Assembly (NCBI GenBank): GCA_018057825.1
Contig: JAGPCY010000050.1
Location: 1-62,201, forward strand
Direction of reading: 5' to 3'
Source of the DNA: Kofleriaceae bacterium
GTDB taxonomy: Bacteria; Myxococcota_A; Polyangia; Haliangiales; Haliangiaceae
DNA length: 62,201 nt
A model generated the notes under the pieces. That model did no database searches. It was given only the letters and a program-made list of their open reading frames with translations, and had not been told where the DNA came from. A program made the translations under genes and the position numbers. Shown here piece by piece: positions 792-35,261 of this stretch (the stretch's first letter is position 1; each line of letters begins with the position of its first letter).

Positions 792-3716
792 CTACTCGAA
801 CACCATGACCGCGGCCCGCCACGGCTCGCCGCCAGCGGCCCGCTCGGCCGCGACCGCCTCCGCCGGCGACGCGCCAGCGGCCAGGCGCGCCCGCACCGCG
901 GCGAAGAAGCGACCGGCGTCGTCGTCGGGGATCGGCACCGCGGCCGCGATCACCGCGCGCGCGCCCGCGGTCAGGAGCGCGTCGGGCAGTCCCCACCGTC
1001 GGTTGATGAGCGGCGAGGCCTGGGCGGCCTCACACGCCGCCAGGACGACGATCGGGCGGCCCGCGAGGGTCAGCCCGCCGAGCGTCGCGGCGGTCAACGC
1101 GAACCGGCCGTCGGGCTCCGGCGACAGCGCCAAGAGCGAGGCCTCGGCGCGGCCGAGATCGACCAGGCCATGGACGTGGAGCTCGACGTAGGCGGCGTCG
1201 GCCAGCGCGGAGATCACGCGGGTCGGCGTGGCCTCGGCCCCGGCCAGCACCTGATCGCCCGGGGCCTCGAGCGCACGGGTCCCGACCCGCGGCAGGCCGA
1301 GGGCCGCCGGCGGGCTCGGGTCGCGGATGATGACCGCGCGACCGGCGCTCGGAAGCGGCCCCGGCGACGGCGGCCGGCTGACGAAGGCCCAGGCCCGATC
1401 GATCGGCAACAGATCGGCGCGCGCGTGGAGCGGCGGCCGCGCGACCACCGACACCGTCGCGCATGCCGCCAAGGCCTGGGCGATCGACGGCGGCACCAGC
1501 TCGGCGGCGGTCGGGGCCAGCATCGCGGCGATGCGCGCGCGGTGGACCACCGGCGGCGCGGCCGCGGTCCGGGCCACCGCCGACACCCGATCGTCGTCGA
1601 GGGACACCGCCAAGACACACCCGGCGACGGGCGGCAGGCCGAGCTCACCCTCGACCAGCGCCAGGGCCGCGGCGCCGTCGCCGCGGGCGGCGGCGTCGTC
1701 GACCAGCGTGCTGTAGGCCCAGGCGCGAAATTCGCCGGCGTTGGCGTCGGTCGGCGCGGCGTCGGCGCCAGCGATCGCGGCGGTCAACGCGGCCCGGGCC
1801 GCCGTCGGATCGCGCTCGAGGTCGAGCCGCCCGCGAGCCGCCGCGGCCGCGATCCGCCCCACCGGATCGTCGGCGATCGCCGCGATCACCGCGTCGGCCC
1901 GCGCGCGATCGGCGGGGTCGCCGGTCAGGCGCGCGAGATCGACCGCGACCATGACCTGGGGCGCCGGCGGCGGCTCGCCGCACGCGCCGGGCGCCGGCAG
2001 GTGGGCGCGGACCCCGGCGACGTCGCCCTGCCAGAACGCCGCGGCGGCGCGCTCCAGCCCGACGAAACGTCGGCGCACGCAGTCGTCCGACGCCGCTGCC
2101 AGGTACTCGTCGAGGTAGGCCGCCATCGGCGCGAACCGCGCCCGCAGCCGCTCGATCTCGCCGAGATGGCCGACCGCCACCGACGCCAGGGCCGGCGTGC
2201 CGGCGGCCACCAGGTGCCCGCGCGCCGCGGTCGCCGCCGCCGCAGCCTCGGCGAGCCGCAGGCTGGCCAGGAGCTGCGCGGCCAGGTCGAGGCCGAGGGT
2301 GCCGCAGCGATAGGCCACGGTCGTCGGGCACGCCGCGATCGCGGCGCGCAAGGTCGCCTCGCTGCCGGCCAGGTCGCCGGCCGCGCGCTGGCGGCGCGCC
2401 CGCTCGCGGGCCACGTGCAGCGTGAACCACGGATCGCCCTCGTCCTCGGCGAGCGCGGCCAGGCGCGCGAACCGATCGTCGACGGCGCCGGCCAAGACGA
2501 TCGCGCCGTACAGCAGATCGGCTACCGCCGGCCCGGCGCGATCGAGCTCGCCGAGGAGCGCGTCGCTCGCGGCGGCGTCCAGGCCGCCGAGCACCAGGGA
2601 CCGGTAGCGGGCGGCGAACCGACCGCGGATCGCGAAGTCGCCGTCGGCGATTCGCGCCACGGCGCGCGCGGCGCCGTCGCCGCCGGTGGCGCGATCGATG
2701 GCCTGGGCCAAGGGCAGGAGTCGACGTGCGTCGTCGGCCGAGGTGGCGGCCCGCAAGGCGTCATGGAGCGCGATCCGGCTCGGCCCCGGGAAGCGCGCCG
2801 CCAGCGCGGGCTCGATCGCGCCGCGGCCCTCGAGGAGCGCGGCCTCGGCGGCGGTGAACTCGGCCAGGGCGCGCTCGCCGGCCTCGACCGGTCCGCGCAG
2901 GCCGTCGGCCAGGGCCCGCGCCTCGTCGCTCCAGCCGGGCTCGCCGGCGGCGGCGATCGCCGCGAAGGCGGCGGCCGCGGTGCGCGGCAAGCCGAGGTCG
3001 CGCAGCGCCAAGGCGCGGTTCCACGCCGCGGCCGGTGCGGGGCCGGCAGCCAACGCGCGGTCGGCCGCCTCGAGAGCCGCCAGCGGATCACCGGCCAGGA
3101 GCGCCAGCGCCGCGCGATCGATCTCGCTGCCGGGGTCGTCCGCCGACGCCAGCGCGGCACGGGCCCGCGCGAGATCGCCGCCCAGCACCAAGGCCCCGAC
3201 GTAGGCCCGGGGCGCGTGGGCCTCGAGGGCGGCCAGGTCGGCCAGCGCGAACCGCTCGCCGGCGATGGCGCCGCGCTCGACGCGCAGCGGCCGGTGACGA
3301 TCGAGCGCCGCGTCGGCGACCCGGACCTCGACGGCGCGGGTGGGCGCCAGGGCCAGGCGCGGCGCCGCCGCCCGCTGCGGCCCGGGGCGCGTGACCCACC
3401 AGCCGATCGCGACCGCCGCCGCCGCCGCCAGCCCGACGGCGACGAACACCGGGGCCGCCCGACGGGCGCGGCGCGGCGCCAGGGGCACCACCGGCGCCGG
3501 CTGGGACGCAGGCTTGGGCGCGGCCGCGAGGGCGGGTCCCGGCACCGCCGCCGCTGCGCGCTCGCCCCCGACCGCGGCGTCGATCGCCATCCACCCCGCG
3601 AGGTCGTCCTGGCAGCGCTGGCAACCGGCCAGGTGATCGAGCGCCGCGACCTCGGCCTCGGGGTCGAGCTGGCCGTCGTAGTAGCGCTGGGTCAGCGCGT
3701 GGACCTGTTCACTCAT
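792..3716 (-). CDS. Anti-sigma zinc-finger protein fused to a CHAT protease domain
   Basis: A 974-residue protein. Residues 1-45 carry an anti-sigma zinc finger of the H-x3-C-x2-C type (H28, C32, C35). After an Ala/Pro linker there is one membrane segment at about 89-108. A long alpha-helical, TPR-like region follows. The C-terminal 150 residues match the CHAT caspase-like fold, with a probable catalytic dyad His849 (in HVHG) and Cys895 (in LAACEAA). The start overlaps the sigma factor stop by eight bases (ATGAGTGA), so the two are translationally coupled and the zinc finger presumably binds that sigma factor. A longer frame to 3896 only reads through the sigma gene. Topology of the protease domain is inferred: with one membrane segment it would lie outside the cytoplasm, unusual for CHAT. 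Confidence 0.85.
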   Translation of the reverse strand: MSEQVHALTQRYYDGQLDPEAEVAALDHLAGCQRCQDDLAGWMAIDAAVGGERAAAAVPGPALAAAPKPASQPAPVVPLAPRRARRAAPVFVAVGLAAAAAVAIGWWVTRPGPQRAAAPRLALAPTRAVEVRVADAALDRHRPLRVERGAIAGERFALADLAALEAHAPRAYVGALVLGGDLARARAALASADDPGSEIDRAALALLAGDPLAALEAADRALAAGPAPAAAWNRALALRDLGLPRTAAAAFAAIAAAGEPGWSDEARALADGLRGPVEAGERALAEFTAAEAALLEGRGAIEPALAARFPGPSRIALHDALRAATSADDARRLLPLAQAIDRATGGDGAARAVARIADGDFAIRGRFAARYRSLVLGGLDAAASDALLGELDRAGPAVADLLYGAIVLAGAVDDRFARLAALAEDEGDPWFTLHVARERARRQRAAGDLAGSEATLRAAIAACPTTVAYRCGTLGLDLAAQLLASLRLAEAAAAATAARGHLVAAGTPALASVAVGHLGEIERLRARFAPMAAYLDEYLAAASDDCVRRRFVGLERAAAAFWQGDVAGVRAHLPAPGACGEPPPAPQVMVAVDLARLTGDPADRARADAVIAAIADDPVGRIAAAAARGRLDLERDPTAARAALTAAIAGADAAPTDANAGEFRAWAYSTLVDDAAARGDGAAALALVEGELGLPPVAGCVLAVSLDDDRVSAVARTAAAPPVVHRARIAAMLAPTAAELVPPSIAQALAACATVSVVARPPLHARADLLPIDRAWAFVSRPPSPGPLPSAGRAVIIRDPSPPAALGLPRVGTRALEAPGDQVLAGAEATPTRVISALADAAYVELHVHGLVDLGRAEASLLALSPEPDGRFALTAATLGGLTLAGRPIVVLAACEAAQASPLINRRWGLPDALLTAGARAVIAAAVPIPDDDAGRFFAAVRARLAAGASPAEAVAAERAAGGEPWRAAVMVFE

Positions 3717-4245
3717 CGTCGACCCCCGTGAACATGGCGCGGATCCGCCGGCGCGCCCGCAGGATGCGCGTGCCGACGGTGTTGCGGCTGATCCCGAGGC
3801 GCTCGCTGACCTCCAGGTACGACAGGCCGTCGACCGTGTAGAGCCGGAACGCCTCGCGCAGCTCCTCGGGCAAGGCGGCGATCCGCTCGTGGACATCCCG
3901 AGCGCTCAGGCGGTGCCACCACGGCTCGACCTCGGGCTCGGGGCTAGCCAGCTCCTCGGTGGCCACCGGCGCCACCGCGCGGCTGCGCCGCACCAGATCG
4001 ATGAACCGGTTGTGCATGACCCGGGTGAGCCAGGCGCGGACCGGCACGTCGGCCGGGATGCGCTCGGCGTTGGTGACCAGGCGCTCGAGGACATCTTGGA
4101 CCAGGTCGCCGGGGTCGAGCTGCGTCCGACATAGCCGGAGGGCCATCGCCCGCAGGAACGGCTCATGCTCGCGCACCAGCGCAGCCAGGGCGGCGCGCCG
4201 ATCGGCGTCGGACGGCGGCGGATCGGCCGGTGGCGGCTTTTCCAT
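3709..4245 (-). CDS. ECF-type RNA polymerase sigma factor
   Basis: A 178-residue sigma-70 family ECF factor. Region 2 begins around PFLRAMALRLC and includes the DLVQDVLERL core-binding helix. Region 4 contains LSYLEVSERLGISRNTVGTR, a typical helix-turn-helix for the -35 element. The chosen ATG at 4245 is the first that leaves a complete region 2; the longer frame to 5298 crosses another gene. It is followed at once by the zinc-finger/CHAT protein and is divergent from the lipoprotein at 4351. As usual for ECF factors, activity is probably set by release from the anti-sigma partner. The target promoters are not evident. Confidence 0.9.
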   Translation of the reverse strand: MEKPPPADPPPSDADRRAALAALVREHEPFLRAMALRLCRTQLDPGDLVQDVLERLVTNAERIPADVPVRAWLTRVMHNRFIDLVRRSRAVAPVATEELASPEPEVEPWWHRLSARDVHERIAALPEELREAFRLYTVDGLSYLEVSERLGISRNTVGTRILRARRRIRAMFTGVDDE

Positions 4246-28330: not shown

Positions 28331-30244
28331 ATGTCGATCCGCCCGCTGATCCTCGCGCTCGTGCTCGCCGTGCCCGCCGGCGCCCACGCGCAGAACAAGC
28401 TCAACGACGGCAAGATCGAGCTGACCCTCAAGCTGCCGGCCGAGAACGGCGGTAGCTCGTTCACGACGCCGAACACCGACTACCTGGCGCGCTACTTCAA
28501 CGTGTCGCGGTGCGTATGCGATACCGACAGCGACACCAAGGAGTACCGGATCGAGTACCGCTGGGTCGACCCGGCCCCGACCCCGACCCCGACCGAGCTC
28601 CTGCGCCCGTGGTCCGGCGAGGGCTGTAACGCTGCGATGGCTTCGACCCGCGACGCCCAGTGCCTCGATCACCCCACGTTCACGCCGGCCGAGCTGGCGA
28701 CGGTGAAGACCGTCGACTACGACGCCCGCGATCTCATGCTCCACGACGCGGAGCGCGCGGTCGGCTGCCCGAGCGCCGTGCGCGCCGTCCAGCACTGGGT
28801 CGTCACCCAGACCGGCAACGAGTGGGACGGCGAGGATCTGCGGTTCAAGCTGGCCGCGGACCTGAACGCCGACATGCTGGCGCCGCCGATCCCCGACGAG
28901 CTGACCTTGGTCCCGCGCGAGGGCGGCATCGTCCTGTCGTGGGAGGCCCTGAGCGACACCACCGACGTCCAGTACTTCCAGGCGCTGTGCTCCAAGGCCG
29001 ACGGCACCAAGGTCCACGACGAGCCGACCCACGAGGCGCGCTACGAGACCCCGACCATGATGTGCGGCGCGAGCTACGACTACGCGCTGCCGCCGGCCAC
29101 CGTCACCAACCCCGGCACCGAGCCGACCGCGGAGCTGCCGGCGGCCCTCGCCGCTCTCGACGAGGCCTTCGTGTGCGGGGAGGCCAGCGGCACCGCGCGC
29201 TCGATCACCCTCGACGAGCTCGAGGACGGGCAGGCCTACCGGGTCGTCCTGGTGTCGGTCGACCGGTCCCGCAACCTGTCGGGCGTGTACGTCGATCGGC
29301 CGATCACGCCCAAGCCGGTGACCGACCTGTGGGAGGTCATCCACGAGAACGATGACGGCGTGGCCGGCGGCTTCTGCGTCGCCCAGGTCGGTCGGGGCGC
29401 GGGCGGAGCCGGTGGCGCGGCGTTGATCGCGGTGGCGACCCTGGTGGCCGTGCGGCGTCGGCGCCGGCGCCGCGGCGCCGGCCGGGCCGCCCGCCTCCTG
29501 CTCCTCGGGCTCGTGCTCGTGCCGACGATGGCCTCGGCCCAGCCGACCTACTCGCCGTACTGGGAGGCCGACGACGACGACGAGGTCGGGGTCGCCGAGC
29601 CGGCGTGGGTGCTCGGCGCGCGCCTCGGGCCCTACGTGCCGTCGATCGACAAGAACTTCATGGCGCCGGGTCCCTACGCCCAGGTGTTCAAGAACGACAG
29701 CGTCATGTTCGCGGTCGACCTCCATCGGGTCTGGCAGCTCGAGTTCGGTCAGGTCGGCTTCGGCGGGACCGCCGGCTACTACACGAACTCGGCCCTGGCC
29801 TTCGAGGACGGCACCACCCCGGGCGATCCCGAGCGCGAGCGCGCCGACGACAACCTGACCCGGCTGTCGATCGTGCCGCTGCACCTGACCGCGACGTTCC
29901 GCGCCACGATCCTCGACGATCGCTTCGGCATCCCGGTCGTGCCGTACGTCCGCGGCGGCCTGGCCTACAACGTCTGGTGGATCAAGACCCCGTCCGACGA
30001 GATCGCGGAGGTCGACGGCGATCGCGCGCGGGGCGGCACGCTCGGCGTGGTCGGCGCCGCGGGGCTGGCGATCCGCGCCGAGCGGATCGATGCCGACGCC
30101 ACCGCGTCGATGCGCGACGGCGGGATCGAGCACGCCGGGTTCTTCGCCGAGGTCGAGGTCGGCTACGTCGACGGCTTCGGCGACAAGACCAAGCTGTCGG
30201 TCGGCGACACCACCTGGTTCGGCGGCGTGGCCTTCGAGTTTTGA
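28331..30244 (+). CDS. Fusion of a MYXO-CTERM-like anchored protein with an outer-membrane beta-barrel protein
   Basis: A 637-residue single frame. Residues 1-20 are a signal peptide ending in AHA. Residues about 25-350 contain fibronectin-like strands and paired Cys. Residues 352-385 look like a MYXO-CTERM sorting signal: a GFC motif, a hydrophobic helix and a run of seven Arg. A second signal-peptide-like stretch follows at once (RLLLLGLVLVPTMASA), and the remaining 235 residues are a beta-barrel ending in Phe, as outer-membrane proteins do. I recall separate adjacent genes in Myxococcus (MXAN_2561, MXAN_2562) with these two parts. Internal in-frame GTGs at 29444 and 29450 could start the barrel alone. 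The stop overlaps truA. Confidence 0.8.
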   Translation: MSIRPLILALVLAVPAGAHAQNKLNDGKIELTLKLPAENGGSSFTTPNTDYLARYFNVSRCVCDTDSDTKEYRIEYRWVDPAPTPTPTELLRPWSGEGCNAAMASTRDAQCLDHPTFTPAELATVKTVDYDARDLMLHDAERAVGCPSAVRAVQHWVVTQTGNEWDGEDLRFKLAADLNADMLAPPIPDELTLVPREGGIVLSWEALSDTTDVQYFQALCSKADGTKVHDEPTHEARYETPTMMCGASYDYALPPATVTNPGTEPTAELPAALAALDEAFVCGEASGTARSITLDELEDGQAYRVVLVSVDRSRNLSGVYVDRPITPKPVTDLWEVIHENDDGVAGGFCVAQVGRGAGGAGGAALIAVATLVAVRRRRRRRGAGRAARLLLLGLVLVPTMASAQPTYSPYWEADDDDEVGVAEPAWVLGARLGPYVPSIDKNFMAPGPYAQVFKNDSVMFAVDLHRVWQLEFGQVGFGGTAGYYTNSALAFEDGTTPGDPERERADDNLTRLSIVPLHLTATFRATILDDRFGIPVVPYVRGGLAYNVWWIKTPSDEIAEVDGDRARGGTLGVVGAAGLAIRAERIDADATASMRDGGIEHAGFFAEVEVGYVDGFGDKTKLSVGDTTWFGGVAFEF

Positions 30245-33926: not shown

Positions 33927-35261
33927 GTGCAGCGCCGCCTGGTCGCCGCCTGGTGCGTCGCGGCGCTGGCCGCCGGCGAGGCGTCGGCCGGCGTCGAGGT
34001 CGGCCCGCTGTCGCCGCGCGGCATCGGCCACGCCGGCGCGTCGCTGGTGTCCGACGATGGCGCCGCGGCGCCGTTCTTGTGCCCGGCGGCGATCGCCCGC
34101 CGCGACCAGCGGCGGGCCCAGCTCGTCGGGGTCATGCGCGACGACGAGGCGTGGCTCGCGACCGCCGATCGCCCGCGGGTCGGCGACGGCAGCGGCGCCA
34201 CCCTGACCCCGCTCGTCGGCGCCCAGGGGCACCTCGGCCCGCTGATCGTCGCCGCGAGCTTCGCGGTCACCGAGGCCTTCGATCGGCGGCTGCCGGTGCC
34301 GGCCGCCGAGCTGCCGGCGGCCGACGTGCTCGCGCGCTATCCTCACCGGTACGCCGGCCTTGCCGCGAGCTGGACCCGCCGGACCCTGGCGGCCGCCGCG
34401 GCCTGGCGCGCCACCGACTGGCTGGCGCTCGGCGCGTCGGTCACCGTGGCCCAGGTCGACGTCGACGAGCGCCGCCACCTGTGGGCGGGGTTCGCCGGAC
34501 GCGATCCGCTGGCCCAGCCCAGCCGCGACGTCGACCTCTCCCTGACCGCCAGCGACGGGCTGGTGCCCGGCGCCGCCCTGGGCGCGCTGGTGGCCCCCCT
34601 CGACGCGCCCCTCGAGGTCGCCCTCGGCGTGGCCTGGGCCGACGACGTCCGCGCCGACGGCGAGGTCGTCGCCGCCGCGCGGACCGAGGCGCCGACGGTG
34701 GCCGCGGTCGCGCCCCGGGCCACGCTGCGGGTCGGCTCGGCGTTGACCGCGGGCCTGGGCGTGCGCTGGCTCGGCGAGCGCTACGCCGTCGAGGGCGCCG
34801 CGACCTGGACCACCTACCCGACCGGCCTCGATCGCTGGCGCGTGACCGGCCTCGAGCTGGTCGATCAGAGCGGCGCGCGGGCCGCGGTCGATGGCCTGTC
34901 GACCCGCCTGCCCCACCGCGGCCACGGCAGCGTGGCGGCCGCGATCGATGTCGCGATCACCCCCGGGTTCGCGTGGTTGACCGTCGGCTACCGGTTCGCC
35001 ACCGCGGCGTCGCCGACCCTCGCGACCACCACCGTCGGCGCCGCGCTCGGCGGCCACACCCTGGCCACCGGCCTCGAGCTCTCGGTCGACGGCGCGGTGA
35101 TCACCGTCGGCGTCGCCCATCAGCTCGCGGTCGAGCGCGCGATCCTGGCCCCCGGCCTGCCCCTCGACAACCCGTTCTCGGGCGGCAGTGCGCCGGCCAA
35201 CCTGGGCCGCCACGCGACCAGCCAGGACGTGATCGCGATCGGCCTCGAGCTGACCCGCTGA
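33927..35261 (+). CDS. Outer-membrane beta-barrel protein of the FadL/OmpP1 type
   Basis: A 444-residue protein with a 21-residue signal peptide ending in ASA. The mature N-terminus (VGPLSPRGIGHAGASLVSDDGAAAPFLCPAA) resembles FadL/TodX transporters, which start with a hatch bearing an NPA-like motif. Repeated alternating strands follow (LGASVTVAQVDVD; LRVGSALTAGLGVRWLGERY) and the C-terminal strand IGLELTR suits a barrel. FadL proteins carry long-chain fatty acids or other hydrophobic compounds across the outer membrane; the substrate is not determinable. Its GTG start is set by the promoter box just upstream. Confidence 0.7.
   Translation: MQRRLVAAWCVAALAAGEASAGVEVGPLSPRGIGHAGASLVSDDGAAAPFLCPAAIARRDQRRAQLVGVMRDDEAWLATADRPRVGDGSGATLTPLVGAQGHLGPLIVAASFAVTEAFDRRLPVPAAELPAADVLARYPHRYAGLAASWTRRTLAAAAAWRATDWLALGASVTVAQVDVDERRHLWAGFAGRDPLAQPSRDVDLSLTASDGLVPGAALGALVAPLDAPLEVALGVAWADDVRADGEVVAAARTEAPTVAAVAPRATLRVGSALTAGLGVRWLGERYAVEGAATWTTYPTGLDRWRVTGLELVDQSGARAAVDGLSTRLPHRGHGSVAAAIDVAITPGFAWLTVGYRFATAASPTLATTTVGAALGGHTLATGLELSVDGAVITVGVAHQLAVERAILAPGLPLDNPFSGGSAPANLGRHATSQDVIAIGLELTR

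Follow-up and report, generated by a model that had tools for sequence, protein, structure and literature searches.

What does a single reading frame make when it carries a sorting tag in its middle and then continues directly into another signal peptide and a barrel of the outer membrane? The question is raised by a gene in the window, by which we mean the whole 62,201-nucleotide stretch of DNA that was analysed. The gene lies at 28331 to 30244 on the forward strand, as do all the features described for it here, and is a single unbroken frame of 637 codons (637 amino acids) plus a TGA stop codon. Its ortholog in the closest relative (genome G003) is likewise a full-length frame, which in a genome comparison showed 61% identity to the window gene and no stops. 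Translation confirmed what the initial annotation had read from the letters, namely one frame with two signal peptides, a tag, seven arginines, and a barrel ending in phenylalanine. We consider it probable that the product is one polyprotein, which would be cut into two envelope proteins by signal peptidase, acting twice, and by a myxosortase-type protease.

The frame begins with signal peptide 1 (28331 to 28390; MSIRPLILALVLAVPAGAHA followed by QN), with predicted cleavage after AHA at residue 20, between MSIRPLILALVLAVPAGAHA and Q; aligned fused homologues also have a signal-like N-terminal sequence. The ectodomain (28391 to 29365) is a Cys-rich, FN3-like beta-sandwich as judged from the alignment, the structural model, the fold search, and a weak similarity to the MXAN_2561 family, and eight of its cysteines (61, 63, 99, 111, 146, 220, 245, and 282) are invariant in the aligned fused proteins. 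The internal sorting tag (29366 to 29473), recognized from the sequence, the alignment, the model, and TIGR03901, consists of GGFC at residues 346 to 349, a hydrophobic stretch at about 361 to 374, and exactly seven Arg residues at 375 to 381. A further 256 residues lie beyond it, so the tag of the window is not C-terminal. Signal peptide 2 (29453 to 29539) has an Arg-rich n-region that is common to the Arg end of the tag, an h-region reading LLLLGLVLVPTM, and a predicted cleavage site between ASA and Q; residues 389 to 403 read LLLLGLVLVPTMASA, with the Q directly after. The eight-stranded outer-membrane barrel of the MXAN_2562 family (29540 to 30241), assigned by NF040596, the model, and the fold search, ends in GVAFEF immediately before the stop codon. 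A possible TTG start of truA overlaps that TGA by four bases (TTGA, window 30241 to 30244), so the polyprotein gene itself may be translationally coupled to truA. Farther along, at 33927 to 35261, the window encodes another predicted outer-membrane protein, with a match to PF03349 (FadL/TodX) of 21.4 bits, under the cut-off of 29.7.

Residues 426 to 637 match the MXAN_2562 family barrel model NF040596 at 166.5 bits (NCBIfam cut-off, 100). Residues 8 to 377 match the MXAN_2561 family model NF045522 at 39.3 bits, under its equivalog cut-off of 150, and by this comparison the N-terminal part is a distant homologue of that family and not a member by cut-off. An AlphaFold2 model of the fused protein, made with an 18-sequence alignment, has a mean pLDDT of 77.6, with low confidence at residues 349 to 365 and 395 to 421. 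It predicts a beta-rich N-terminal part, helices at residues 361 to 378 and 384 to 399, and then eight barrel strands. Foldseek matches to this model were FN3 domains and OmpA/OmpX/OmpW barrels. The eight predicted strands and the FEF end agree with the barrel fold and with its C-terminal aromatic residue.

The initial annotation had labelled the tag MYXO-CTERM-like, a label that holds for its architecture; as a family assignment, MYXO-CTERM fails. All three parts of a tripartite tag are present (GGFC, a helix at 361 to 378, and Arg375 to Arg381). However, the tail scored 10.9 bits with TIGR03901, under the cut-off of 20, and strict MYXO-CTERM membership was rejected. The score with GG_III-CTERM was 20.2 bits, under the cut-off of 22; a scan of the tail with TIGR03382 reported no match, and the CFI-box-CTERM model NF041770 (cut-off 40) gave no match at the tag position of the window. 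Given scores under the cut-offs, the tail is MYXO-CTERM-like by architecture only. The midcut-by-XrtH family (NF033207), whose name implies a mid-protein sorting signal, resembles the present case by name only; the window protein was rejected as a member, at 13.4 bits against a cut-off of 45. A literature search on CFI-box-CTERM and midcut-by-XrtH found no papers. Most members of the window's family carry a CFI-box domain and following helices after the tag Cys, and NF041770 scored 76.9 bits at the tag position in L026 and L074 and 33.4 bits, under the cut-off of 40, in proteins of the L005 type. The short MYXO-CTERM-like tail is found in the window, G003, and G019, which the tree nests within the CFI-box clade, and both kinds of tail are also present in split genes. 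CFI-box-CTERM tails (L005 to L022 and the L026 type) and MYXO-CTERM-like tails (L001, L002, and L003) interchange after the same invariant Cys.

Might two genes simply have been joined by an error of sequencing or assembly? The assembly that holds the window is split over multiple contigs, and there are many MAGs among the relatives, but no support for such an error was found. Both halves were searched for in 56 related genomes, and HMMs for each half were run on all fetched loci. The fused form was present in 27 of 27 assessable members of the window's family (Kofleriaceae per record names), each a separate assembly, with L004 and L024, truncated at contig ends, left out of the count. The aligned fused relatives are 33 to 62% identical, and length changes at the junction stay in frame. 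Between the tag Cys and the barrel, the 27 family members together have 3,245 codons, none of them an in-frame stop, whereas the other two frames contain 85 and 23 stops. Much of the junction would be coding whether the frame gives one product or two, and the decisive point is therefore that the stop present in every split pair is missing from all of the family members. The initial annotation had named two findings that would speak against a genuine fusion, a missing base that hid a stop codon and homologues that were always split; neither was borne out. The 27 fused relatives rule out a sequencing error, and an artificial joining of two genes is very improbable.

Fused loci are not confined to the family, as 10 more were found outside it. 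The two halves are separate ORFs in 53 usable loci from Myxococcaceae, Archangium, Polyangiaceae, and others, and the statement in the initial annotation that MXAN_2561 and MXAN_2562 are separate genes was correct. In several of the fused loci, and in some of the split ones, the gene is flanked by a TgpA-like transglutaminase gene and truA, and this synteny supports the orthology of the two forms. A maximum likelihood tree of 90 barrels requires at least six changes between fused and split forms, and branches with good support force five of these. The window's family falls, together with two sister families from its order, in a single fused clade of 29 sequences (support, 100/99). Other fused sequences stand among split ones (L077, L045/L046, L051, L122, L085, and L124/L125), some of them on long branches. 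By this tree the fusion arose repeatedly, and it is presumably the derived state, a direction taken from the wide spread of the split form rather than from a root of the tree. Some loci in the set are unusual in other ways. L045 and L046 are two fused paralogues of the polyprotein gene in one genome (G039), and L081 (WQYX01000154.1) has two consecutive MXAN_2561-like genes, at 1268 to 2524 and 2446 to 3750, before one barrel gene. L095 (BNCN01000003.1), titled Comamonas sp. KCTC 72670, has a pair that groups at short distance with Myxococcus vastator, and the record is probably mislabelled or mixed.

Across residues 336 to 408, the only residues invariant in the 18 aligned fused proteins are G346, G347, C349 (codon at 29375 to 29377), A401, and A403. 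These coincide with the putative myxosortase site and the putative signal peptidase site. The Arg cluster between the two sites is also strongly kept. The polyprotein reading had been one of two proposals in the initial annotation, and it is now well supported, with a fusion that is fixed in the family and of repeated origin and with invariance at the junction confined to the predicted processing sites.

The other proposal was two overlapping products with an internal GTG start. In a wider form, one frame would give two products, the barrel being also, or only, made from an internal GTG or TTG codon within the tag, left over from the coupling of the two genes in their split form. Split pairs overlap by exactly four nucleotides (ATGA) in 40 of 53 cases, and restart at such an overlap favours internal initiation in the fused gene as well. 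The traA and traB ORFs also overlap by four bases (PMC3325183), so that tight co-translation is the rule for the pair, which equally fits the polyprotein reading. Three split loci with an overlap of -58 probably have mis-assigned starts. Candidate internal starts in the window lie at 29423 to 29452, where TTG29423, GTG29432, GTG29444, and GTG29450 show SD-like pairing of -8.0, -2.6, -6.2, and -4.7 kcal/mol, respectively, as compared with -2.6 kcal/mol for the first ATG at 28331. The pairing at TTG29423, GTG29444, and GTG29450, the last two being the codons that had been singled out, is moderate. However, these starts are not conserved in relatives, and Val residues in a hydrophobic stretch are commonly encoded by GTG. 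An automatic signal-peptide finder took the tag helix in many fused proteins, so a search for the basic cluster was used instead to place signal peptide 2, leaving L017, L029, and L051 without an assignment. Of the 34 fused genes analysed, 12 have no ATG, GTG, or TTG in the stretch that separates the tag helix from the hydrophobic core of signal peptide 2, and only 9 have an ATG there. L017 lacks any start codon between the Cys and the cleavage site, a distance of 105 codons, making at least 13 fused genes without a start just before signal peptide 2. The split barrel genes, by contrast, start with ATG in 48 of 53 cases and have a strong SD (median, -9.5 kcal/mol). These counts disfavour internal initiation as a general rule, and we regard it as unlikely for the window gene.

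In the polyprotein reading, signal peptide 1 would direct the FN3-like ectodomain through Sec, and the tag helix would act as a stop-transfer segment, with the Arg cluster held in the cytoplasm. The same Arg cluster would serve as the n-region of signal peptide 2 and restart transfer for the barrel, giving an in-out hairpin. Both signal peptides would be lost to signal peptidase I, the first cut following AHA and the second ASA, and the tag cysteine is the expected cutting site of a myxosortase-type CPBP protease, probably once C349 is lipidated. The ectodomain product would then be a lipid-anchored surface protein, and the barrel would be folded into the outer membrane by the Bam machinery. 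We infer this topology, both kinds of cut, the lipidation, and the final locations, and likewise that the two products work as partners.

The genome of the window (G000) has one gene for a myxosortase-like CPBP protein (G000:C16:57506-58201), which scores 112.2 bits with Mrt_core (NF040914; cut-off, 100) and carries EELFFR and HAASN, matching the EExxxR and HxxxN motifs. With the MrtX, MrtC, and MrtP models it scores 136.2, 130.1, and 160 bits, under the cut-offs of 180, 195, and 250, respectively. Since the tail of the window falls under the cut-offs of MYXO-CTERM, GG_III, and other tag models, its recognition by a myxosortase is an assumption. Might the tag then stay uncut, with signal peptidase alone acting at signal peptide 2 and the ectodomain remaining in the inner membrane or lipid anchored? 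The failure of the tail to reach any tag-model cut-off would fit this, as would the CFI-box with two helices that most relatives have as their tail. However, all 18 fused proteins in the alignment have GG-x-C, and the genome contains both the Mrt_core protease and 49 MYXO-CTERM matches over the cut-off, and an uncut tag seems to us quite improbable.

The frames were read beyond nearly all of those 49 tags. The survey was built on TIGR03901 matches and so misses sub-threshold tags such as that of the window itself, and signal peptides were called by eye and by simple rules rather than by a trained predictor. Most of the tags in the genome are followed by a stop within 0 to 13 residues, apart from L130, which runs on for 65 residues, and L165, whose match lacks the Cys. 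Seven proteins, L166 (C72), L167 (C43), L168 (C18), L169 (C38), L170 (C20), L171 (C12), and L172 (C42), run on for 471 to 628 residues past an internal MYXO-CTERM, and in each of them the Arg cluster leads directly into a second signal peptide. Four of these signal peptides are of the signal peptidase I type and three of the lipobox type. An OmpA domain was found in the two second halves of the signal peptidase I type that were scanned against Pfam, and the other two have similar sequence. L169 has no start codon between the tag and the second signal peptide. Relatives also carry similar fused forms. In four other genomes, internal tags with at least 180 further residues make up 2 of 7 in G012, 2 of 35 in G051, 0 of 12 in G053, and 0 of 8 in G044, and a signal-peptide-like stretch follows all four of them. 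Three G051 tags with 53 to 174 extra residues are without a following signal peptide, so not every tag extension fits the scheme. Fixation of the joined layout in the family, and its recurrence in other genes of the genome, make it probable that these bacteria produce some pairs of envelope proteins as a polyprotein that is cut during export. Two further arrangements were seen in the genome. L170 (G000:C20, about 205331 to 208243) combines SpoIID, an internal MYXO-CTERM, a signal peptide with a lipobox, and Amidase_2, and closes with another MYXO-CTERM; long single frames occur in G002, G003, and G006 as well. At G000:C75:130700-140800, about seven MYXO-CTERM matches stand in a tandem row at a spacing of about 1.6 kb, several with near-identical tails.

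The fused form may have originated when an overlapping gene pair lost its stop and the two frames were brought together. As the Arg end of the tag can double as the next n-region, loss of the stop would be enough to give a polyprotein separable by the standard export proteases. We tentatively extend this to a general scheme for Kofleriaceae and their relatives, plausible though short of probable, in which the Arg end of a tag serves as the next n-region, a lost stop yields a processed polyprotein, and the second half may be of the signal peptidase I or the lipobox type. Within that scheme the CFI-box would be a processing signal equivalent to the MYXO-CTERM-like tail, because both tails swap around the same invariant Cys, and with such a swap at a single position the role of the CFI-box can be tested directly. 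The fused proteins offer natural substrates for locating the myxosortase cut, because that cut would separate two recognizable proteins. Together, separate genes, four-nucleotide overlaps, and fusions form a natural series for studying how partners come to equal amounts. Polyproteins that export proteases separate are unusual in bacteria.

A sorting tag outside the C terminus has an archaeal parallel. In the archaeon Haloferax, a tripartite tag that is not at the C terminus is reportedly still processed by ArtA (Abdul Halim, 2017, cited in PMC11980579), a likeness in the position of the tag and a difference in the enzyme, which is an archaeosortase. Among known systems close to the present protein, the MXAN_2561/MXAN_2562 pair (NF045522 and NF040596) has homologous halves, the same order and tag position, and in some split loci the same synteny with truA and the TgpA-like gene, but is encoded by two genes, usually with a four-nucleotide stop-start overlap. 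TraA and TraB likewise combine a MYXO-CTERM surface protein with an envelope barrel/OmpA partner (PMC3325183). They differ in that they are not fused, the ectodomain is unrelated, and TraB carries OmpA; TraB-like second halves occur in other putative polyproteins of the window's genome, where one second half of the OmpA kind scores 223.8 bits with the TraB model, under the cut-off of 700. Internal MYXO-CTERM motifs in ORFs have been described as rare in a 2025 paper on myxosortase (PMC11980579); the internal tag described here is fixed across a family, in a fused form of several origins and with at least seven companions in one genome. The scheme is already anticipated for one protein, MXAN_5598 of Myxococcus xanthus, which has an internal MYXO-CTERM and for which a gene fusion with processing of the N-terminal part was suggested (PMC11980579). 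MXAN_5598 resembles the window protein in that a single frame joins a surface-type N-terminal part, an internal tag, and an outer-membrane barrel. The barrel of MXAN_5598 is of a different family and has an OmpA domain, whereas the window tail is not a model MYXO-CTERM, and, unlike in that account, fixation of the fusion is shown here for a whole clade and a second signal peptide is recognized. What is new here is a second family, the clade fixation, the repeated origin, the regular second signal peptide, the exchange with the CFI-box tail, and the presence of several companions in one genome.
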